Source: Vasconcelosia minhoensis LEGE 07310 | GTDB lineage: Bacteria > Cyanobacteriota > Cyanobacteriia > Phormidesmidales > Phormidesmidaceae | Assembly (NCBI RefSeq): GCF_015207255.1 | Contig: NZ_JADEXG010000018.1 | Coordinates: 1-64,000, forward strand | Length of the DNA: 64,000 bases | Direction of reading: 5' to 3' | Shown here: positions 24,721-48,806 of the stretch, piece by piece | Position numbering within the stretch: position 1 is the first letter of the stretch | Layout of the letters: each line of letters begins with the position of its first letter | Program-made: the position numbers and the translations under genes | Notes under the pieces: model-generated | What the model was told of the DNA's origin: nothing | Databases searched by the model: none | What the model saw: only the letters and a program-made list of their open reading frames with translations

Positions 24721-24761
24721 TCAGGGTTGGGCTTAACCTTCAAGGTTAAGCCCAACCCTGA
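24721..24761. promoter_or_regulatory. Perfect 20-bp inverted repeat in the leader of the CheB-CheR-kinase gene
   Basis: TCAGGGTTGGGCTTAACCTT, one base, then its exact reverse complement, ending 10 bases before the ATG at 24772. A short T run follows. In RNA it would form a very stable hairpin next to the start; in DNA it is a possible operator. The neighbouring solute-binding gene is divergent, so it is not that gene's terminator. Confidence 0.7.
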
Positions 24762-24771
24762 TTTTGTAAAC

Positions 24772-27700
24772 ATGACCGATCAAACCTCCGAGCAGCAGAC
24801 CCAGGGCTCAAATGAGCCCTTTCCTATTGTTGGCATTGGCTCTTCCGCTGGCGGGCTAGAACCCACCTCACAGCTCCTGAGCCACCTGCCGGTTGACATG
24901 GGTATGGCGTTTGTGGTGATTCAGCATTTAGCGCCCGATCATCCCAGCCTCTTATCTGAGCTGCTCGGCAGACGGACGGAAATGCCGGTGCGCCAGATCG
25001 AAGACGGGATGAACATAGAGCCCAATCATGTTTACGTAATTGCGCCCAATACTCAGATCACGCTTAATCAGCAAAAGCGATTCAAGGTTGAGCCGCGCGA
25101 CATGAGTCCGGGTAAGTTCAAACCCATTGATCTTTTCTTTCAGTCGCTGGCTGAGGTTTGGGACAGCAGCGCTATTGGCATCATTTTATCGGGTACCGAC
25201 GCTGATGGCACCTTGGGGATGAGGGCCATCCGAGCGGCCGGTGGAATCACGATGACGCAGTGTCGAGATACGGCTGAGTTTAGCCAAATGCCGATCACGG
25301 CAGCCGGCGATGGAGACGTTGATTTTGTTCTGCCGCCTGCGGAGATTGCTGAAGAGCTCGTCAGGATGAGCCAGCATTCTTACGTTATTCAGCCTAGCAT
25401 GGCTCCTGCTGACGAGCCCCCGCCGTCAGAGTCCGATTCTTTAGCGACAGTCTTCAGGCTGCTACGTTCCGAGACCGGTGTAGACTTTACCCACTACAAG
25501 CACAATACCTTTAATCGTCGGCTCATGCGGCGAATGGCGCTGTACAAGTTTGAAAATTTAGAGGACTATATTTCGTATTTGAGAACGCATCCAGATGAGC
25601 TGCAGGCCCTCTATCAAGATGTCATTATTACCGTTACGAGCTTTTTCCGCGATCCTGATACCTTTATTGCCCTGAAAAATCGAATCTTTCCTAGAATTCT
25701 GCAGGAGAAAACCGATGACGCGGTAATTCGAATCTGGGTGCCGGGCTGCGCAACGGGAGAAGAATGCTACTCCATGGCTATCTGCCTGCTAGAGTTTTTG
25801 TCTGAGCAGCAGATTAAACCCAGCATCCAAATTTTTGGTACAGACATCAGCGAAACCGCGATCGACAAGGCGCGGACGGGCATCTACAACGAAAGCGCCA
25901 TGTCTCCAGTCTCCCACGAGCGCCGCCGTCGCTTTTTCCTCGAGGTGGAAAGCGGCTATCAGGTGACTCAATCGGTGCGCGAGCTATGCGTCTTTGCCAA
26001 GCAAAACCTGATCAGCGACCCGCCCTTTTCCAACCTGGATTTGGTCAGCTGCCGCAACGTGCTGATTTACTTTACATCAATCTTGCAAAAGCGGGTGCTG
26101 CCGATCTTTCACTACAGCCTCCGGCCCAACGGCTATCTGACGCTGGGCGGCTCCGAGAGCGTGGGCGAGGCGTCAGACCTGTTTACCGCCGTCGATAAAA
26201 AGCATCGCATCTACGGGCGAGCAGCGACGCCCTCTCGTCTAAACTTTGACTTTGTGTCCAGCGATCAGCTGACGGTGGTGGCTAAGCCCAGCGGCCAGAC
26301 AATAGGAGATCCTCGCACCGGACTCAGCATGCAGCAGAAGGCGGACGAGATTGTATTAAATCAGTATGCCCCAGTTGGGGTCGTGATCAATCAGAAGCTT
26401 GATATTTTGCAGTTTCGCGGCGATACCAGCCCCTACCTCAGACCCGCCTCTGGGGAACCGAGCTTTAACCTGCTGAAGATGATCCGCCCGGAACTGCTGT
26501 TGGAGGTTCGTACAGCGGTAAACCAGGCCAAGCGGCGAGAGGCTCCTGTGCAAAAAACAAAGCTGCGAGTCGATGGAACTTCATCGCTAGAAAATGTCCA
26601 CCTTGAGGTGGTTCCATTTAAAGTGCCAAATGTCCAGGAGCCCTATCTACTAGTTCTGTTTTCCCAAATATCAACGCCGTCAGTGGAGGAACCACCCAAT
26701 GCAATAGACAGCAGCGACTTGGATGCAGAGCCCGAGATCACCCGGCTCACGCAGGAACTCGCCGACGTTAAACAGGAGCTGCAAGAGACGCAGGCCCATT
26801 TGCAAACCACGATTGAGGATCAGGATTCGACGAACCAGAGCCTGACCACGGCCAACGAGGAGATTCTCTCGAGCAATGAAGAGCTGCAGAGCATTAATGA
26901 AGAGCTGCAAACGGCTAAAGAAGAAATTCAGGCGGCCAATGAAGAGCTCAAGACCACCAATGAAGAACTCCACAGCCGCAACCTGGAAGCCCGCCAGGTT
27001 AACAACGACCTGATCAATCTGCTCAACAATGTCAATATCCCGATCCTGATGCTCTCCAGCGAGCTTCGCATCCGTCGGTTTACACCCGCTGCCCAGCAAA
27101 TTTTTAACCTAATTCCGACTGACGTGGGGCGTCCGGTCAGCGATATCCGGCTCAATATTAACGTTCCCGATTTAGAGAATATGCTGCGACAGGTAATTGA
27201 TACGCTAAGTATGCAAGAGCGGGAGCTGCAAGACACCGAAGGGGGATGGCATCTGCTGCGGGTGCGGCCCTATAAAACGACCGAAAATCAGATCGACGGG
27301 GCAGTGATGACCCTCGTCGATATTGACGCGCTTAAACGAACCATCGAACAGCTGGAAGTTTCTCGAAACTATGCTGAAAGCATTGTTGAAACGGTGCGCG
27401 AGCCGCTCATTGTACTCGATGCAGACCTGCATATACAGCGAGCCAATCGAGCCTTTTATGACGTCTTTCAAGTGGTACCAGCGGCCACTGAGCAGCGGCT
27501 GATTTTTGAAATCGGCAATGGCCAGTGGGATATTCCGGAGCTGCGATCGCTCCTAGAAAATGTTTTCACCAACCACGTCGAGCTGCGAGACTATGAAGTT
27601 GAGCAAGACTTCGAGCAGATCGGGCATAAAGTGCTGCTGCTGAATGCGCGCAAGTTTGCGCAAGGCGATGACCATCGCAGAATTTTGCTCGCGATTGAAG

Positions 27701-28899
27701 ACATTACCGACCGCAAGCAGGCCGAGGCTGAGCGCACCCGTCTGCTGCTAGCGCAGCAGGCCCAGGCTGAGGCCGAAGCAGAGAATATTCGAAAAAATGA
27801 GTTTCTCTCGATGCTCTCCCATGAGCTGCGGACGCCGCTCAACAGCATTTTGGGCTGGTCACAGATTCTCACTCAGCGGCAGCCCCGCCCAGAGGTGATG
27901 GCTCGGGCCCTAGAGGCCATCAGCCGCGGCGCTCGCACTCAGGCCCAGCTGATCGAAGACCTGCTCGATATTTCCCGGATTATCCAGGGCAGGCTCCATC
28001 TAGCGGCGCGCCCCACTAACCTGACTTCAATTATACGGTCAGTGATTGAGTCTTTAGAACTCACGGCTGAGCAGAAGCAAATCCGTCTAGAAGCTCAGCT
28101 AGACCCGACTCCAGGTAGCGTAATTGTCGATCCTGACCGGATGCAGCAGGTCTTTGCCAACCTCTTGATCAACGCCATCAAGTTTACGCCCGAGGGGGGC
28201 CAGGTTGAGGTGCGGCTTACCTACAGCGAGAGCGAAATTCAAGCGCAGGTCATTGACACTGGCAAAGGTATTAGCCCTGAAATTCTACCTCATATTTTTG
28301 AGCGCTTTCGTCAAGACGATAGCTCAGCGACGCGCAGCTACGGCGGGCTAGGGCTAGGTCTTGCTATTGTCCGCTACCTGGTTGAAGCCCACGATGGTAT
28401 CGTTACGGCTGAGAGTGAAGGCGAGGGGCAGGGGGCAACCTTTACTATTGCTCTGCCACTAGTCCTAGCGGACGTGCCGCCAGCTCGGCCATCTGCGCTA
28501 CCCGAGGCCGATGATATTCGCCTCACCGGGGCGCGACTGCTGCTAGTCGATGACGAAGAGGACAATCTGGCTCCGCTCAGATACGTCCTAGAGGCCCAGG
28601 GAGCAACCGTTATGACGGCTATATCTGCCGCCGCGGCCCTAGAGAAACTAGTAGAGCAGAGGCCCGACGTGCTGATTAGCGATATCGCCATGGCCGACAT
28701 GACCGGTATTGACATGATTCGCCTGGTGCGATCGCGTCCGCCAGAGCAGGGAGGAGGGGTACCCGCGATCGCGCTCACAGCTTACGCCGCCGACAGCGAA
28801 GTTCAGGAGATCCTGGCCGCCGGGTTTCAGCACCATATTGCCAAACCGATCGACATCGACGAAGTCATCGCCCTGATCGCTAGCCTGGTGAACAGCTGA
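24772..28899 (+). CDS. CheB-CheR-PAS-histidine kinase-receiver hybrid protein
   Basis: A 1375-residue signalling protein. A CheB methylesterase domain (IVGIGSSAGGLEP, SGTDADGTLG) spans about residues 15-205. A CheR methyltransferase (VWVPGCATGEECYSMAI, GTDISETAI) spans about 230-490. A Glu/Asn-rich coiled coil lies near 655-740, followed by one or two PAS domains. Then come HisKA (FLSMLSHELRTPLNSILGW), HATPase (GLGLGLAIVRYLVE) and a C-terminal receiver (LLLVDDEEDN, DVLISDIAM). No chemoreceptor or CheA is nearby, so it probably runs its own phospho-signalling. The ATG at 24772 follows a perfect hairpin; an upstream start would translate it. Confidence 0.9.
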   Translation: MTDQTSEQQTQGSNEPFPIVGIGSSAGGLEPTSQLLSHLPVDMGMAFVVIQHLAPDHPSLLSELLGRRTEMPVRQIEDGMNIEPNHVYVIAPNTQITLNQQKRFKVEPRDMSPGKFKPIDLFFQSLAEVWDSSAIGIILSGTDADGTLGMRAIRAAGGITMTQCRDTAEFSQMPITAAGDGDVDFVLPPAEIAEELVRMSQHSYVIQPSMAPADEPPPSESDSLATVFRLLRSETGVDFTHYKHNTFNRRLMRRMALYKFENLEDYISYLRTHPDELQALYQDVIITVTSFFRDPDTFIALKNRIFPRILQEKTDDAVIRIWVPGCATGEECYSMAICLLEFLSEQQIKPSIQIFGTDISETAIDKARTGIYNESAMSPVSHERRRRFFLEVESGYQVTQSVRELCVFAKQNLISDPPFSNLDLVSCRNVLIYFTSILQKRVLPIFHYSLRPNGYLTLGGSESVGEASDLFTAVDKKHRIYGRAATPSRLNFDFVSSDQLTVVAKPSGQTIGDPRTGLSMQQKADEIVLNQYAPVGVVINQKLDILQFRGDTSPYLRPASGEPSFNLLKMIRPELLLEVRTAVNQAKRREAPVQKTKLRVDGTSSLENVHLEVVPFKVPNVQEPYLLVLFSQISTPSVEEPPNAIDSSDLDAEPEITRLTQELADVKQELQETQAHLQTTIEDQDSTNQSLTTANEEILSSNEELQSINEELQTAKEEIQAANEELKTTNEELHSRNLEARQVNNDLINLLNNVNIPILMLSSELRIRRFTPAAQQIFNLIPTDVGRPVSDIRLNINVPDLENMLRQVIDTLSMQERELQDTEGGWHLLRVRPYKTTENQIDGAVMTLVDIDALKRTIEQLEVSRNYAESIVETVREPLIVLDADLHIQRANRAFYDVFQVVPAATEQRLIFEIGNGQWDIPELRSLLENVFTNHVELRDYEVEQDFEQIGHKVLLLNARKFAQGDDHRRILLAIEDITDRKQAEAERTRLLLAQQAQAEAEAENIRKNEFLSMLSHELRTPLNSILGWSQILTQRQPRPEVMARALEAISRGARTQAQLIEDLLDISRIIQGRLHLAARPTNLTSIIRSVIESLELTAEQKQIRLEAQLDPTPGSVIVDPDRMQQVFANLLINAIKFTPEGGQVEVRLTYSESEIQAQVIDTGKGISPEILPHIFERFRQDDSSATRSYGGLGLGLAIVRYLVEAHDGIVTAESEGEGQGATFTIALPLVLADVPPARPSALPEADDIRLTGARLLLVDDEEDNLAPLRYVLEAQGATVMTAISAAAALEKLVEQRPDVLISDIAMADMTGIDMIRLVRSRPPEQGGGVPAIALTAYAADSEVQEILAAGFQHHIAKPIDIDEVIALIASLVNS

Positions 28900-41811: not shown

Positions 41812-44800
41812 CTACTGCGGTTTTGCGCCCAGGCAGCTGGTCAGAACGCTAGCGAGGTTCTCAAGGTAGGGAGACTCGTATAGATGCTGATGTTTGCTCT
41901 CAACCATGTGCAGCTTGAAACGATCCGGGTCGACATGACGATCCCAGCCCAAGAGCAGGCCATCGACTGACTCCACTGCCTGCTGGTTGGCCCACAGCGA
42001 CTGGGGCTGATAGGGATAAAAGCGCGGCACGTAGGTATGGAGCTTGGTTAGCAGGAAATCCAGCTGACCCGGGTAAGGCTTGGGCAGATAGTTCTGCTGG
42101 GCGCGGACAAAGGTTTCGAAGAAGCGATCTTTGATCAGCTGCTCTCGTTCTCTTGCTTTGCCTGAACGAGCCGCTGGCTGAGGAGCGGGAGGCTGCGCTG
42201 AATTATTCGGTTTTCTAGACCCGCGATCTCTGGCCGTCGAAGGCTTTCGGCTAGGACGCTGGAGCTTGTTCTGAACGCCCTGAGTGAGTTTATTCAAGAA
42301 GGAGCCCAGATATTCTATTCGTTCACCAGAATCCCGCTGTTTAAGCTGCTCTAGGTGATAATTTTTGGCATAGCCCAGCCGACGGCGATAGAAATTGGCG
42401 GTGAAGAGAAAATAGCTCCAGTCGAACCGACTGTGCCGGTAGCTCGGTTTGTGATAGTAATAGCGAGCCCGGGCCAGGACGTACTGGTCGAGCTGCGGGT
42501 GGGGCGTATCCAGTAGCGCTGCCAGGGCAACTTCTTCCCCCTGCTGGGTCAGCTGCTGCGCCATCTCATAGACGACGATGCCGCCGGAGCATTGGCCCAC
42601 CAGCTGATAGGGACCGTGGGGCTGAACCGTTTGAATTTCGGCGATGTAGTGCGCCGCCATGGCTTCGATTGTGGGTAGGGGAAGCTGCTGACCGTCTAAC
42701 CCGACCCCCCGCAGCGCATACAGCGGCTGCTGCGGCCCCAAATGCTTCACTAGCTCGCCAATGCCTAACACATCGCCAAAGCCGCCATGGATAAAAAACA
42801 GCGGCAGCTCCGAGCCGTTGGGCTGGATGGGCACCAGCGATCGCCAGCGGTCTGCCGCTGAGTCTTCCTGGTCTAGCAGTGCCGCTAGCTTTTCTACCGT
42901 CGGGTGCTCTAGCAGGACCGTCATTGGCAGCCGCTGTCCAAAGCGATCCTCAATCTGGGCAAAGACCTCGACTGCGAGGAGGGAAGTGCCCCCCAGTTCA
43001 AAAAAGTTATCCTGCCGGCCAACCTGGTCAATCCGCAGTCCGCTTTGCCAGATCGCTGCCAGGGTTTTCTCCGTCTCGGTCTGGGGAGGCACAAACCGGG
43101 CCTGCGATGAGCGCTGCCGCTGCTGCTGAGCTTCTACCGCCGCTAAAATCTGGGCCGGAGTCACCAGGTCTGAGGCAATCCGATTCCACAGCTCGGATAC
43201 GCTTGCTCGGCTGACCGCAGCGCTCGGCTGAGCTGCGGATTTGGCCTGAGCTTGGGACTGAGCCTGAACCGGGGCTTCTGGCTGGGTCAGGCTGAAATGG
43301 AGCGACCGGGCAGCCTCTGTTGGTAGAGTGTAGTCGGTTCGCTGCGCCTGAGCCTGCTCAAAGTCCTTGCCGATAGCGGCGAGGAAATTGGCGACGGGCT
43401 TATTTTTAGCTGTGGGCAGATAGGGTAGGTGAACGGTGTCTAACCCCCGCTCCACCGCTACCTGGCCGAGGTGAGCCACCATTCGATGCTCCACCCCCCG
43501 ACCCAGAACGCGGCAGCTGAGCAAAAAGGTATCGACGCTGAGCTGGCTGGCCTCGGCCCGGGCCAGGATGACGCCTACTAGGCCATAGTCACCAAAGCGA
43601 TCGCGCACCTCCACTACCCAGCAGTCGCCCTCAGACTGGCAGAACTGGCGGATATCGGCTTCTGAACGGCGCACCGTAGTGGCGTTGAACTGGTTGGTGC
43701 GCTGGGTCAGCTGGGCCACCCGGGCCACCTGCTCAGGCTGGACGGGCGTAATCTCAATTTGGAGCTGGAGCCCCTCGATGAAGCTTTCAAAGCTGACCGT
43801 TTCCTGCAAAAAGCGATCGCGCTCAATATTCTGCTTGTAGAGCTGGGTGCGCTGGCTATCAGCCTCGGTCACCTGGAGCTGGTCGAAGGGCCAAGCCTGT
43901 TCCAGAAACTGGGGAATTTTCTCGGTCGCCTGGGGCAGCTGTAGCGTCAGCACCTGGGGACAGCTGGCCCGCACCTCTGAGCATTCGATCGGATTGTCGT
44001 CAATGAAAATGAAGCTGTCCAGCCCCAGGTTCAGCTCCTGAGCCAGGGAGCGAATATTCTCTGACTTGGGCTGCCAGTTAATCCGGCTGCTGACCAGGTG
44101 AGATGGCTTTAGCGGCATATCCTGGCGCTGCCGAAACACTTCATCCACGTCTTCTTCGACGTTTTTACTGCACAGGCAGAGCAGCATCCCCGCCTGGCTA
44201 CGGGCAACCATAAAGTTTTGCAGCGCCAGCCAGGGCGCATCCAGGCCAATCCCCTGCGGCCCAATCTCGCCGCAGACGCCCTTCCACAAGGTATTGTCGC
44301 AGTCCAGCACGATTACCTTATAGGGGGCGCGGGTTAGGGCCGAAAGCTGCCGTGCGATCGCGCTTCCCAGCGCCGTAAAGTACAGGTCGGTGTAGGGGAT
44401 ATGGCCCAAGCTGTCGCGCTTGGCGTCGTAGAAAGCATCGACCGGGTAGCGCTGCGCAATCTGGTCTGCGGTCGTCACGTAGATTCCCTTACAGGGCTCC
44501 AAGGCCGAGACGAGCTGCTGCTGGAGCTGCTCGAACAGCGCCGCGTAGGTTGCTTCGGCAGTGGGTGAAGCGGGAGCAACGTACAGCAGGTAAGGCGTAG
44601 CGGACTGGGCGGCGGCGGACTGGAGGGCTGAGATTAGCTCCTGCACGGTCTGCTCCATTGGGGCTGCGGCTGAATCGGCACTGGCTAGCGCCTCGGCCGG
44701 TAGCAGGTCTTCAAACCGAATTAGAACGACGTTGGCCCCAGCTGAATTTTGGGCCAGCAGGCTAGTCGGGTTAAGCAGCTGCTGAAAAATCTGGTTGTAG

Positions 44801-44985
44801 GGCGCAAAGGTGACTGTACAGTCCAGGCTAAGCGTCTGGCTCCAGAAAGCCAGGCTGTCGGCTAGCGGCTCGGCGGTGAAGGTGGCCGCGATCGCAACCT
44901 GCATGGCTTTTTTAGAATTCTGCTGGCTCGTTGGGACGCTATGCTCACTCAGCTTGGATGCATTCCGATGGGCTTGGCTGACCAT
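41812..44985 (-). CDS. FkbH-like HAD enzyme with carrier and thioesterase domains
   Basis: A 1057-residue, one-protein assembly line. Near residue 228, DCDNTLWKGVCGE is the FkbH HAD site that loads a glyceryl unit from 1,3-bisphosphoglycerate onto a carrier. A GNAT-like part follows (DRFGDYGLVGVI, LGRGVEHRM). The carrier has its phosphopantetheine Ser in DNFFELGGTSLLAVEV near residue 660. A thioesterase (FFIHGGFGDVLG, then GQCSGG) ends the protein, interrupted by a basic Pro/Ser-rich linker. The nucleophile position is Cys, not Ser. No ketosynthase or adenylation gene is adjacent. ATGs at 44985 and 44904 are the likely starts. Confidence 0.85.
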   Translation of the reverse strand: MVSQAHRNASKLSEHSVPTSQQNSKKAMQVAIAATFTAEPLADSLAFWSQTLSLDCTVTFAPYNQIFQQLLNPTSLLAQNSAGANVVLIRFEDLLPAEALASADSAAAPMEQTVQELISALQSAAAQSATPYLLYVAPASPTAEATYAALFEQLQQQLVSALEPCKGIYVTTADQIAQRYPVDAFYDAKRDSLGHIPYTDLYFTALGSAIARQLSALTRAPYKVIVLDCDNTLWKGVCGEIGPQGIGLDAPWLALQNFMVARSQAGMLLCLCSKNVEEDVDEVFRQRQDMPLKPSHLVSSRINWQPKSENIRSLAQELNLGLDSFIFIDDNPIECSEVRASCPQVLTLQLPQATEKIPQFLEQAWPFDQLQVTEADSQRTQLYKQNIERDRFLQETVSFESFIEGLQLQIEITPVQPEQVARVAQLTQRTNQFNATTVRRSEADIRQFCQSEGDCWVVEVRDRFGDYGLVGVILARAEASQLSVDTFLLSCRVLGRGVEHRMVAHLGQVAVERGLDTVHLPYLPTAKNKPVANFLAAIGKDFEQAQAQRTDYTLPTEAARSLHFSLTQPEAPVQAQSQAQAKSAAQPSAAVSRASVSELWNRIASDLVTPAQILAAVEAQQQRQRSSQARFVPPQTETEKTLAAIWQSGLRIDQVGRQDNFFELGGTSLLAVEVFAQIEDRFGQRLPMTVLLEHPTVEKLAALLDQEDSAADRWRSLVPIQPNGSELPLFFIHGGFGDVLGIGELVKHLGPQQPLYALRGVGLDGQQLPLPTIEAMAAHYIAEIQTVQPHGPYQLVGQCSGGIVVYEMAQQLTQQGEEVALAALLDTPHPQLDQYVLARARYYYHKPSYRHSRFDWSYFLFTANFYRRRLGYAKNYHLEQLKQRDSGERIEYLGSFLNKLTQGVQNKLQRPSRKPSTARDRGSRKPNNSAQPPAPQPAARSGKAREREQLIKDRFFETFVRAQQNYLPKPYPGQLDFLLTKLHTYVPRFYPYQPQSLWANQQAVESVDGLLLGWDRHVDPDRFKLHMVESKHQHLYESPYLENLASVLTSCLGAKPQ

Positions 44986-45256
44986 ATTAAATCTCAGAAA
45001 CGGCTGCGCAATATTGATCCGTGAAACTCCGTACCACCCTAGCGTTAGCACCCGTGGCTCGCCGCCTTTTAGCCGGGGCTTTACAGTTTATTTGTTTATC
45101 TATATCTATCTATGTTTTGGAGGTTAAGCTGACCCGGCTGAATATGTCCTCATTTTGGCCGCTAAGGGAGGCTTGCCCCCTATAGCGCCCGCAGCGCGAT
45201 CGGCTTCCATGTTTGGGTAGACTATGTGCTAGGATTATTAACCGTTGGGTGACGAT

Positions 45257-45341
45257 GGGTCGGTGCCCGAGTGGTTAATGGGGGCGGACTGTAAATCCGC
45301 TGGCTACGCCTACGCTGGTTCAAATCCAGCCCGGCCCACCA
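45257..45341 (+). tRNA. tRNA-Tyr (GTA anticodon)
   Basis: Acceptor arms GGGTCGG/CCGGCCC pair with one G-U. The anticodon stem GCGGA/TCCGC holds GTA, and a long variable arm follows, as in bacterial tRNA-Tyr. GGTTCAAATCC is the T arm, and CCA is encoded. Confidence 0.95.
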
Positions 45342-45360
45342 CCTGTAAAATGGAGCAAAT

Positions 45361-45432
45361 GCCCGTGTGGCTCAGTGGTAGAGCACACCCTTGGTAAGGG
45401 TGAGGTCACGAGTTCAATCCTCGTCACGGGCT
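45361..45432 (+). tRNA. tRNA-Thr (GGT anticodon)
   Basis: Acceptor arms GCCCGTG/CACGGGC pair perfectly. The D arm is GGCTCAGTGGTAGAGC, the anticodon loop CTTGGTAAG carries GGT, and the T arm is GAGTTCAATCC. It lies 19 bases after tRNA-Tyr. A T run follows and could terminate it. Confidence 0.95.
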
Positions 45433-45673: not shown

Positions 45674-45911
45674 AGGCGTTTCTCTTACGTACGAGGTCAT
45701 AGACATCGATAACTTGCGAGGGCTAATGTTCGCGCAAGCAAAAGATACAGGGAATGGTTGCTTTAAAGCAATGATTCTTAAAGGCTCCTTATTGAGGTGC
45801 CTGTTAACCTTTCGAGGCTTACCTGACTATTTCAAGATTTATCTTGTTGCCACTAAATACAAAAGCGGATTTTCTCTTAAAACAAAAAACAAACTGTAGG
45901 AGGTTTAGTTC

Positions 45912-46385
45912 ATGAGTATTGTAGCTAAGGTGATTGCTCAATCAGATCGCGCTGACCGATTTTTAAGTAGTGCTGAGCTGACTCAGCTCCAAGATTTTTT
46001 CAACGATAGCGGTGCGCGGATCAGCGCTGCCCAAAAATTAGCAGCCAACCAGCAGAAAATTGTTGAAGAAGGCAGCAAACGATTTTGGGAGCAGTGTCCC
46101 AATACCCCTAGCAACAGCGGTGACAAGCAAAAAACGGCCCTTTGTCAGCGAGATCAAGGATGGTATATCCGCCTGGTGAGCTATTGTTTGCTGGCTGGCA
46201 ATTCTAAGCCCTTAGAAGATATTGGTCTGGATGGAATGCGCGATATGTACGTCTCCCTAAACGTGCCTTTAGCAAATCTAAAACTGGCAATGCGCTGCTT
46301 AAAGCAAGTTGCTACAGGTCTCTTAAGCTCTGAAGAAGCTGCATTAGCTAGCCCCTACTTTGACCAGCTCATCCGAGCTTTTTAA
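45912..46385 (+). CDS. apcD4: ApcD-type allophycocyanin alpha subunit, ApcD4-like
   Basis: A 157-residue phycobiliprotein alpha subunit. Cys78 in TALCQRDQGWYIRLVSYCLLAG is the expected bilin attachment site, and EDIGLDGMRDMYVSLNVPL follows as in ApcD proteins. It differs from core ApcA in the loop before the chromophore, which is shorter and Asn/Ser-rich (CPNTPSNSGDKQK). That is a feature of divergent, red-shifted alpha subunits. It is followed by an ApcB gene and an IsiA-family gene, the order of the low-light cluster. A strong AGGAGGT site precedes the ATG. The number 4 is assigned from context and is not proven. Confidence 0.8.
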   Translation: MSIVAKVIAQSDRADRFLSSAELTQLQDFFNDSGARISAAQKLAANQQKIVEEGSKRFWEQCPNTPSNSGDKQKTALCQRDQGWYIRLVSYCLLAGNSKPLEDIGLDGMRDMYVSLNVPLANLKLAMRCLKQVATGLLSSEEAALASPYFDQLIRAF

Positions 46386-46483
46386 GCTTGTTCATTCGTT
46401 TTACCCTGCCCGCTACAGGTTCTGAAGCTGAGTAGGGAAGCGCTTTTAGCCCGAAGTCCACATTTTCAAAACTAGAAACAATC

Positions 46484-46969
46484 ATGCAAGACACAATCAC
46501 TTCGATCATTAACCCTGCTGATGAGAAAGGCCGCTATCTGGAGGGTAATGACCTTGACAAACTCAAGCAATATCTTCAATCAGGCGCCCTACGCGTTAAA
46601 GCGGCTAGTCAGATTGGTGGAAATGTTGACAGCATTATCAGCAAAACCGTTGAGAAAAGCCTGCTGTACGGAGATATTACGCTGCCGGGTGGCAATATGT
46701 ATCCTACTCGGCGTTATGCCGCCTGCCTGCGAGATTTAACCTATTTCCTGCGCTATGCCACCTATGCCATGTTGGCTGCTGACCCTTCCATTTTGGATGA
46801 GCGGGTTCTCAATGGCTTAAAAGAGACCTACTCGTCCTTGGGCGTCCCGATTGAGCCGACTATCCAAGCTATTCAGGCCATGAAGGAAGTTGTTACCCAA
46901 CGAGTAGGCGCTGAAGCCGGGCAAGAAATGGATGTTTATCTCGATCACATCATATCTGGTTTGAGCTAG
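46484..46969 (+). CDS. apcB3: Allophycocyanin beta subunit, ApcB3-like
   Basis: 161 residues with the full ApcB pattern: Cys81 in [23 protein letters not shown] binds the bilin, Asn71 (GGNMYP) corresponds to the methylated Asn of beta subunits, and [21 protein letters not shown] follows. Together with the preceding alpha subunit it would form an allophycocyanin protomer. The gap to the alpha gene is 98 bases, so co-transcription is likely. Assignment as ApcB3 rests on its place before an isiX-like gene. Confidence 0.83.
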
Positions 46970-47048
46970 GCATTTCTCTTCAAATCTATGGGTCTATTCG
47001 CGAGGGTAGACCCGTGCTGAACATCCCTATTGCTGACGACCTACTGCC

Positions 47049-48476
47049 ATGTACGCTTCTGACAAAACCCAAGAATATCCTTGGTGGGCAGGAAATGCCC
47101 GGTTTATCGATCTGTCTAATACGTTTATCGTTGCTCACGTCGCTCAGGCTGCCCTGATTATGCTGTGGGCTGGGTCATTTACCCTATTTGAGCTGGCCGT
47201 TTATTCTTCCGATGCGCCGCTTTACACCCAGGGCCTGATTCTGCTGCCCCATCTGGCCACTGAGGGCTGGGGTATTGGCTCAGGTGGCGCGATTGTTGAT
47301 ACCAGCGTCTGGTTCTCGATTGGGGCTATTCATATTGTCGCGGCTGCCGTGTTAGCGGGTGGAGCCTATTTTCACTACACTCGACTGCCTGCTAGCTTGG
47401 CGAACGCTCCAAACAATGCCGCTAAGTTTCATTTTGAGTGGCAAGATGCTAAAAAGCTGGGCTTTATTCTAGGGCATCACCTCATCTTTTTGGCCTTAGG
47501 AGCGCTGCTGCTCGTTGCTAAAGCGCAGTACTTTGGGGGGCTCTACGATGCCTATTCAGACTCGGTACGGGTAGTTGCCTCTCCGACGCTTAGCCCGGCT
47601 GCCATCTGGGACTATAGAACGCATCTGTTTGATGTTAGAAGCCTAGAAGACTTGGTGGGTGGACATATCTATGTCGCTGGTCTATTGATTGCAGGAGGCA
47701 TCTGGCACATTCTGGTTCCTCCCTTCCAATGGGTTAAGCGGTTTTTCTTCTTTTCGGGAGATGGCATTTTATCCTACTCGCTGTTTGGTATTGCCATAGC
47801 AGGCTTTGCGGCCTCTTACTACTGCGGCTTCGATTCACTGGCCTATCCTGAAAAGTTCTATGGCCCTACCTTGGAATTGAAATCGTCACTGCTGCCGCGC
47901 TATTACGAGGTTCAGCCAACCATGGCCGACGGCTATACTAGCCGGGTCTGGCTGGCAAATGCTCATTTCTATCTAGCCTTTTTCTTCTTGCAGGGCGGCC
48001 TATGGCATTTTCAACGGGCGGCAGGCTTCAATATCAGTAACCTGCTGGAAAACTGGCGGCGAAATCGGCTTGTGAGCAGTGAAAATCCCACGCTGGCTTA
48101 TCAGCACTCAGAACGGTTACAGCCCGGCTCCGCTGTGACTTTAGGATACGGTATGCCGGAAGCTGAGCCACAGCCCCAGCTGAAAATAAGACAATACGAC
48201 GAGGATTATATCTATCGGCCCATTAGAAGGATGTCTCAAACCGATCTGACTACCATTAATGGCGTCAAAAAGACGCTGTATCAGACGGCCTATCAGTCCC
48301 AGAAAGACAGGTTCTATCAATCTTCTAAGCAAGATAAATCTGAGGCTGAAACCTTGTTTGGATATGGTAAATCCTATTCGGATCGCCTGTATGAGAGACC
48401 TGAAAATTTGGCAACTAAGCCACCTGCATACTCTCGACCCATCGAAACCACAGTTTACGAACCTAGGCTTCAGTAA
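47049..48476 (+). CDS. isiX: IsiA/CP43-family chlorophyll-binding protein with C-terminal extension (IsiX-like)
   Basis: The first ~325 residues are a six-helix CP43-like antenna: WWAGNARFIDLSNTFIVAHVAQAA, LILLPHLATEGWGIGSGG, and the final helix NAHFYLAFFFLQGGLWHFQRAA with chlorophyll-ligand His residues. The large lumenal loop of true CP43 is absent, as in IsiA/Pcb. IsiA proteins end near residue 345; this one runs to 475 with a hydrophilic, Tyr- and Gln-rich tail. Being third after ApcD- and ApcB-type genes, it matches the isiX position in low-light-induced clusters. It would bind chlorophyll a in the thylakoid membrane, and the tail would face the cytoplasm, where allophycocyanin is. Confidence 0.85.
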   Translation: MYASDKTQEYPWWAGNARFIDLSNTFIVAHVAQAALIMLWAGSFTLFELAVYSSDAPLYTQGLILLPHLATEGWGIGSGGAIVDTSVWFSIGAIHIVAAAVLAGGAYFHYTRLPASLANAPNNAAKFHFEWQDAKKLGFILGHHLIFLALGALLLVAKAQYFGGLYDAYSDSVRVVASPTLSPAAIWDYRTHLFDVRSLEDLVGGHIYVAGLLIAGGIWHILVPPFQWVKRFFFFSGDGILSYSLFGIAIAGFAASYYCGFDSLAYPEKFYGPTLELKSSLLPRYYEVQPTMADGYTSRVWLANAHFYLAFFFLQGGLWHFQRAAGFNISNLLENWRRNRLVSSENPTLAYQHSERLQPGSAVTLGYGMPEAEPQPQLKIRQYDEDYIYRPIRRMSQTDLTTINGVKKTLYQTAYQSQKDRFYQSSKQDKSEAETLFGYGKSYSDRLYERPENLATKPPAYSRPIETTVYEPRLQ

Positions 48477-48806
48477 TCGCTTACTGAGAACCCTATTGAA
48501 TAGGCTATGAGCTCCCCTGGAAGCACGGATTTGGTGAGTAAAGCTAAGATCAAGTGCTACGGCGGCTAATCCTGGTTTTGCTCACCTATTCAAGTAGGCA
48601 TAGCTCTACTTGGACTTTTGAGTTCCAAACGGAGGAAAGCTGGAAATATTTCCGTGAAAGCTCCAAAACATTGCTATAACCTATGCTGCAACTACCACCC
48701 AAGCAATGAAGATACTGATTAATGACTGACTTATTCATAAGCTTCTCGCTCGGTTCGTGTTACTTCTCTTGCGCTGATTAAGCGAATTGAATTGCCTCTT
48801 TCTTTA
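48477..48806. other. Gap downstream of isiX
   Basis: About 330 bases without a gene. No strong T-tailed hairpin was found to end the antenna operon. It leads into a patch of gene fragments. Confidence 0.4.

Follow-up and report, generated by a model that had tools for sequence, protein, structure and literature searches.

The window analysed here, 64,000 nucleotides of Vasconcelosia minhoensis LEGE 07310 (contig NZ_JADEXG010000018.1, positions 1 to 64,000), contains a cassette of three genes, apcD4, apcB3 and isiX (Table 1). Direct reading of the open reading frames shows that all three are intact and run in the same direction, with spacers of 98 bases between apcD4 and apcB3 and of 79 bases between apcB3 and isiX. 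Pfam places ApcD4 and ApcB3 in the Phycobilisome protein family (E = 1.7e-51 and 4.6e-55) and IsiX in the PSII/CP43 family (E = 1.9e-52), and IsiX scores above the NCBIfam cut-off for chlorophyll a/b-binding antenna proteins. All three genes look to be under purifying selection, judging from dN/dS ratios against the nearest relative of 0.045 for apcD4, 0.043 for apcB3, 0.081 for the IsiX domain and 0.23 for the IsiX tail. Upstream of apcD4, the sequence is conserved among relatives mainly around the ribosome-binding site and the start codon, and we claim no conserved promoter motif there. A pattern scan for terminators around the cassette returned 4 patterns where 4.5 were expected, that is, not above chance for the region.

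Table 1. Features of the cassette in the window (positions without prefix) and at related loci (prefixed L).
Feature	Position	Strand	Basis or remark
AGGAGG Shine-Dalgarno	45898..45903	+	8 bases 5' of apcD4 start; direct reading; conserved in relatives
apcD4, far-red allophycocyanin alpha subunit, 157 aa	45912..46385	+	PDB match, clade, residues, BE-loop deletion
apcB3, allophycocyanin beta subunit, 161 aa	46484..46969	+	PDB match, clade, residues
isiX, whole ORF, 475 aa	47049..48476	+	
isiX six-helix IsiA/CP43-family chlorophyll-binding domain, residues 1-332	47049..48044	+	phmmer, tree, model helices
isiX C-terminal tail, residues 333-475, invariant Tyr; candidate nanotube-binding linker	48045..48473	+	no Pfam match; low pLDDT; tail profile
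Possible intrinsic terminator 3' of isiX, weak	48589..48614	+	pattern scan
Tail-only IsiX ORFs	L072:9179-9700, L074:7621-8142, L076:9407-9940		two isolates and one MAG
cpcBA/linkers, cassette, RcaE/RcaF/RcaC-like block	L072:3759-14847 and matching parts of L074 and L076		

Identity of the three proteins

The best PDB matches of the alpha and beta subunits (phmmer) are 8ddy_A (E = 1.9e-79) and 8ddy_B (E = 1e-75), which are the ApcD4 and ApcB3 chains of the Synechococcus A1463 nanotube (PMC10038336). In a tree of phycobilisome proteins the alpha subunit lies inside the ApcD4 clade (support 100/99) and not with ApcA/ApcD1, a grouping set beforehand as a test, and the beta subunit lies inside the ApcB3 clade (99/99). 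Both fall outside the FaRLiP clades (ApcD2/D3/D5 and ApcB2), the FaRLiP copies of the host being separate, on contig C150. The residues reported as diagnostic (PMC10038336, PMC11614940, PMC12279586) are all present, namely Ser11, Phe58, Cys62, Lys74, Cys78 and Cys92 in ApcD4, which also has Trp84, and Thr4, Pro11, Tyr18, Pro74 and Cys81 in ApcB3; alpha-Ser11, beta-Thr4, beta-Pro11 and beta-Pro74 are described as helix-forming or ApcB3-specific (PMC10038336, PMC11614940). Furthermore, compared with ApcA and ApcD1 of its own genome, ApcD4 has a three-residue deletion in the BE loop that marks far-red allophycocyanins. Position 75 of ApcB3 is Thr, not the Trp75 that the beta subunit of Halomicronema hongdechloris requires for its 728-nm band (PMC12279586), so that, by analogy, the ApcD4-ApcB3 pair of the window is more likely to absorb near 709-710 nm.

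Residues 8-332 of IsiX match the IsiA structure 6k33 (E = 2e-125, phmmer against the PDB), and its AlphaFold model contains six long helices, the mean pLDDT of the whole model being only 52.5. We tested whether this third protein groups with plain IsiA: it does not, and falls in an IsiX clade (support 99/100) that is sister to IsiA. Trees and diagnostic residues thus bear out the sequence-only reading, which had named the genes ApcD4-like, ApcB3-like and IsiX-like in the order apcD4-apcB3-isiX. By its sequence, the cassette is a further member of the known LoLiP type.

The derivation of IsiX from IsiA could also suggest an iron-stress antenna of the IsiA type that neighbours allophycocyanin genes by chance, as could an Rfam call for IsrR, the isiA antisense RNA, inside isiX (47439-47616, minus strand). 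We rejected this RNA, since the Rfam model also hits psbC, with the highest score (159.7 bits), as well as every other IsiA-family gene that we looked at; the match in isiX therefore reflects coding homology. Moreover, the host has a separate isiA-like cluster on contig C43, and the helix-6 His of IsiA (QGH) is replaced by Gly or Ser in every IsiX that we compared, the IsiX of the window having QGG. We hold such an iron-stress antenna to be most improbable.

The IsiX tail and tail-only IsiX

No Pfam family matches the C-terminal tail, and the tail is predicted to be disordered, residues 342-475 having a pLDDT below 50 in the model. Eleven columns are invariant in 15 tails (W4, Y19, Q20, Y35, Y57, L68, L78, Y79, Y91, Y116 and Y138), and Tyr accounts for seven of them (hypergeometric p = 2.3e-6, indicative only, the sequences being related). 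In raw counts, a profile of the tail matches 5 of 386 genomes of a phylum sample, the same five that have ApcD4 and always at the cassette, and 19 of 65 family genomes; one family genome, G419 (1050 contigs), has a tail match but no ApcD4 match. The tail has been proposed to run through the nanotube as a ruler (PMC10038336). Our literature search found no demonstration of contact between tail and nanotube, and no earlier description of tail disorder with seven invariant Tyr or of the co-occurrence of tail and ApcD4.

The tail varies in length. Genomes G391 and G405 show two tail matches in one frame each, the tail of L090 comprises 235 residues, and a repeated unit is seen in the lengthened tails at L090:9118-10824 and G391 C1:782818-783411; the longer tails (L090/G405 and G391) are consistent with duplicated units. 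On the other hand, three assemblies carry a tail-only IsiX: Pleurocapsa CCALA 161 (L072), a Myxosarcina MAG (L074) and Pleurocapsales LEGE 10410 (L076). In each, the ORF that follows apcB3 retains ~28 N-terminal residues together with the tail but lacks, in frame, the ~300-residue chlorophyll domain; the junction is shared by L072 and L074, and L076 has small insertions at that point. Tail dN/dS is 0.14-0.26 between the trio and full-length relatives and, where computable and with few changes, 0.46-0.48 within it, the L072-L074 pair having no synonymous change and hence no ratio. The apcD4-isiX segment of L076 is 85-93% like those of L072 and L074, against 76-85% for most flanking cpc and regulator genes. 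Because the cassette segment is more alike than its flanks, its sequences point to possible exchange between strains, and we do not count the trio as three independent losses. A tail without its chlorophyll domain in three assemblies implies that docking through that domain is not universal; it fits, and does not prove, a tail that binds the nanotube. The role of the tail, a hypothesis in PMC10038336, becomes testable with these natural tail-only proteins and naturally lengthened tails.

The same three loci share their surroundings: upstream of the cassette lie cpcB-cpcA and genes for two linkers and a CpcD-type linker, and directly downstream are genes for a GAF-PAS kinase, a CheY and a regulator with two receiver domains (domains and names were checked on the L072 and L074 members, those of L076 by protein-family membership). 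We rejected an RfpABC-like identity for these regulators: the kinase has no PHY match and the GAF domain of its L074 member matches RcaE (7ckv, E = 3.7e-62), for which reason we read them as RcaE-RcaF-RcaC-like. A PcyA-type bilin reductase is present in L074, with an ORF of the same family in L076 and none listed for L072. At L099, where IsiX is full-length, the kinase and the CheY follow the cassette before the contig ends (L099:2874-5331). In the window, we saw no RcaE/F/C-like genes next to the cassette. As judged by ApcD5, FaRLiP is present in tail-only genomes G442 and G444 and absent from G443. The cassette itself is of a known kind; tail-only IsiX and RcaEFC-type neighbours are apparently new, no earlier description of either having been found in the literature.

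Neighbourhood, distribution and FaRLiP

Beside the cassette, the ORFs examined encode a PP-binding/thioesterase protein, a GcvT-like protein, a hydrolase-like product and ShlB; the protein adjoining the cassette, of 1079 aa with phosphopantetheine and thioesterase domains, lies at 41812-45051 on the minus strand. With about half of the long ORFs of the window scanned, one histidine kinase was identified, ~17 kb from the cassette and with no GAF match, and no LcyA-like cyanobacteriochrome was found beside the cassette, nor was LcyA recognised at the other cassette loci. Positions 24727-28899 (plus strand) encode a CheB-CheR-PAS-histidine kinase-receiver hybrid protein.

A trnY-trnT pair (tRNA-Tyr and tRNA-Thr, 45257-45432), found in most family genomes searched, stands 480 bases 5' of apcD4. 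The GC3 of the cassette genes (0.44-0.52) is below that of about 96% of 82 sampled host ORFs (mean 0.654, sd 0.079), and at the other loci the cassette is flanked by none of the genes that lie within 8 kb of it here. These features fit horizontal acquisition of the cassette, as read from sequence. In an empty-site comparison at trnY-trnT, the 13 relatives examined share nothing with the window beyond the two tRNA genes and the sequence right next to them, and we set no insertion boundary. Low GC3 and non-recurring flanks would also suit a cassette recently acquired and not used, a reading that we find very unlikely in view of the three intact frames and the low dN/dS against the nearest relative.

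The sequence-only reading had found no RfpABC or other far-red genes in the window, which agrees with the part scanned, and had gone on to favour a low-light rather than a FaRLiP type. This argument holds for the window only and fails at the scale of the genome. Among 18 phycobilisome-family matches in the host genome, four lie on contig C150 and belong, together with an ApcE2-like protein, to a FaRLiP cluster that comprises apcD5/B2/D2/E2/D3, psaA2/B2, psbC2 and rfpB-rfpA-rfpC (rfpB at L020 16138-18105; rfpA from L020 18207 into L067; rfpC next), the RfpA orthologue being at C150:38207-40714. With a full FaRLiP set in the same genome, the cassette cannot be called a purely low-light system.

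ApcD4 is present in 5 of 386 phylum-sample genomes at 69-100% identity, the next matches being FaRLiP subunits at 54% or less, and a scan of contigs yielded 31 ApcD4 loci at 66-93% identity, with next matches at 43%. The order apcD4-apcB3-isiX is kept in nearly all of about 30 relative loci, isiX being reversed in L097, L098 and L108. No relative of ApcD4 was found on viral contigs. Within the family, ApcD4 occurs in 15 of the 59 genomes sampled, and FaRLiP in 10 of these 15 versus 2 of the 44 others (Fisher p = 2.6e-6, not corrected for relatedness).

An alternative that we regard as quite possible, though short of probable, takes the cassette of this strain for a far-red-light module, controlled by RfpABC and acting as a far-red emitter for chlorophyll f/d complexes, instead of a low-light system. 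The host FaRLiP cluster with its rfpB-rfpA-rfpC genes speaks for it, although host cassette and cluster lie on different contigs. Judged by ApcD5, 14 of the 33 distinct genomes with apcD4 have FaRLiP and the other 19 do not; ten duplicates with identical coordinates were removed before counting. In Nodosilinea LEGE 07088 (G434 C33, L152:121-14089), psaB2, two unassigned ORFs, rfpB, rfpA, rfpC, a small ORF, apcD4, apcB3 and isiX stand in one row, the sole RfpA match of that genome thus adjoining the cassette, and in G414 the cassette is ~23 kb from FaRLiP genes. Published expression data point both ways: far-red light raises the H. hongdechloris cluster (PMC6416890), whereas in C. fritschii far-red light does not raise the genes and RfpABC does not control them (PMC4658448, PMC6424891). 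The absence of the 728-nm residue Trp75 also argues against an RfpABC module. The regulation of LoLiP is an open question according to the 2025 Bryant memorial (PMC12214013), and it becomes testable with a host that has both a LoLiP-type cassette and FaRLiP and with a relative in which rfpBAC is contiguous with the cassette.

Published clusters and a proposed antenna

The cassette shares ApcD4, ApcB3, an IsiX with a C-terminal extension, and the diagnostic residues of helix and BE loop with the LoLiP clusters of Synechococcus A1463 and related mat strains (Olsen 2015, PMC4477158; Gisriel 2023, PMC10038336). It differs from them in the FaRLiP of its host, in a tail of 143 residues versus the 127 reported, and in the adjacent LcyA, found in those strains though not in every published cluster and not at the cassette of the window. 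In H. hongdechloris (psbA-apcD4-apcB2-isiA2; PMC6416890, PMC12279586) the cluster likewise sits in a FaRLiP host, with no local photoreceptor or rfp genes, and its IsiX-type tail of about 150 aa resembles the long tail of the window; contrary to the window, its operon includes psbA and its beta subunit has Trp75 (728 nm) where ours has Thr75, so that the 728-nm band is not expected here. That ApcD4/ApcB2 pair is reported as a heterodimer, and the species has no LcyA (PMC12279586). Chlorogloeopsis fritschii (apcB3-apcD4/isiX; PMC6424891) is a FaRLiP host with the same three gene families, but its isiX is on the opposite strand, unlike the co-directional genes of the window.

We consider it probable that the three genes provide an accessory far-red antenna. 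By analogy with their orthologues, ApcD4 and ApcB3 would each bind one phycocyanobilin and co-assemble, probably into the helical nanotube solved for the A1463 proteins, where it was observed with recombinant protein (PMC10038336), and the ApcD4 bilin would absorb near 710 nm. IsiX is a six-helix chlorophyll protein derived from IsiA. Its long, disordered tail would hold on to the nanotube by means of the recurring Tyr motifs, a step that we infer here, and, as suggested for the orthologues, would bring the nanotube to a photosystem, probably PSI. The far-red allophycocyanin FRL-AP absorbs near 710 nm and copurifies with IsiX (PMC10038336). The cassette may be induced by dim light, by far-red light acting through RfpABC, or by the two together.

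An extension of this antenna model, which we put forward tentatively and as rather doubtful, would make the tail a separable linker that binds recurring ApcD4-ApcB3 sites through its conserved Tyr motifs and determines the length of the tube. The tail might then have been lengthened by repeat duplication in some lineages (L090/G405 and G391) and, in Pleurocapsales, uncoupled from the chlorophyll antenna. In such strains the acceptor served by the far-red nanotube would be a different one, and several kinds of light regulator would have taken over the cassette: RfpBAC in a single genome and the RcaEFC type at four loci.

Two further observations concern isiX. A Tyr spacing of 22 residues, at ~3.3 angstrom per residue, comes close to a helical repeat of 72.6 angstrom; we noticed this post hoc and do not count it as evidence. 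The gene is split over two frames in SynAce01 (L089:9182-10701) and in a MAG (L078:3778-5251), by frameshift or sequencing error.
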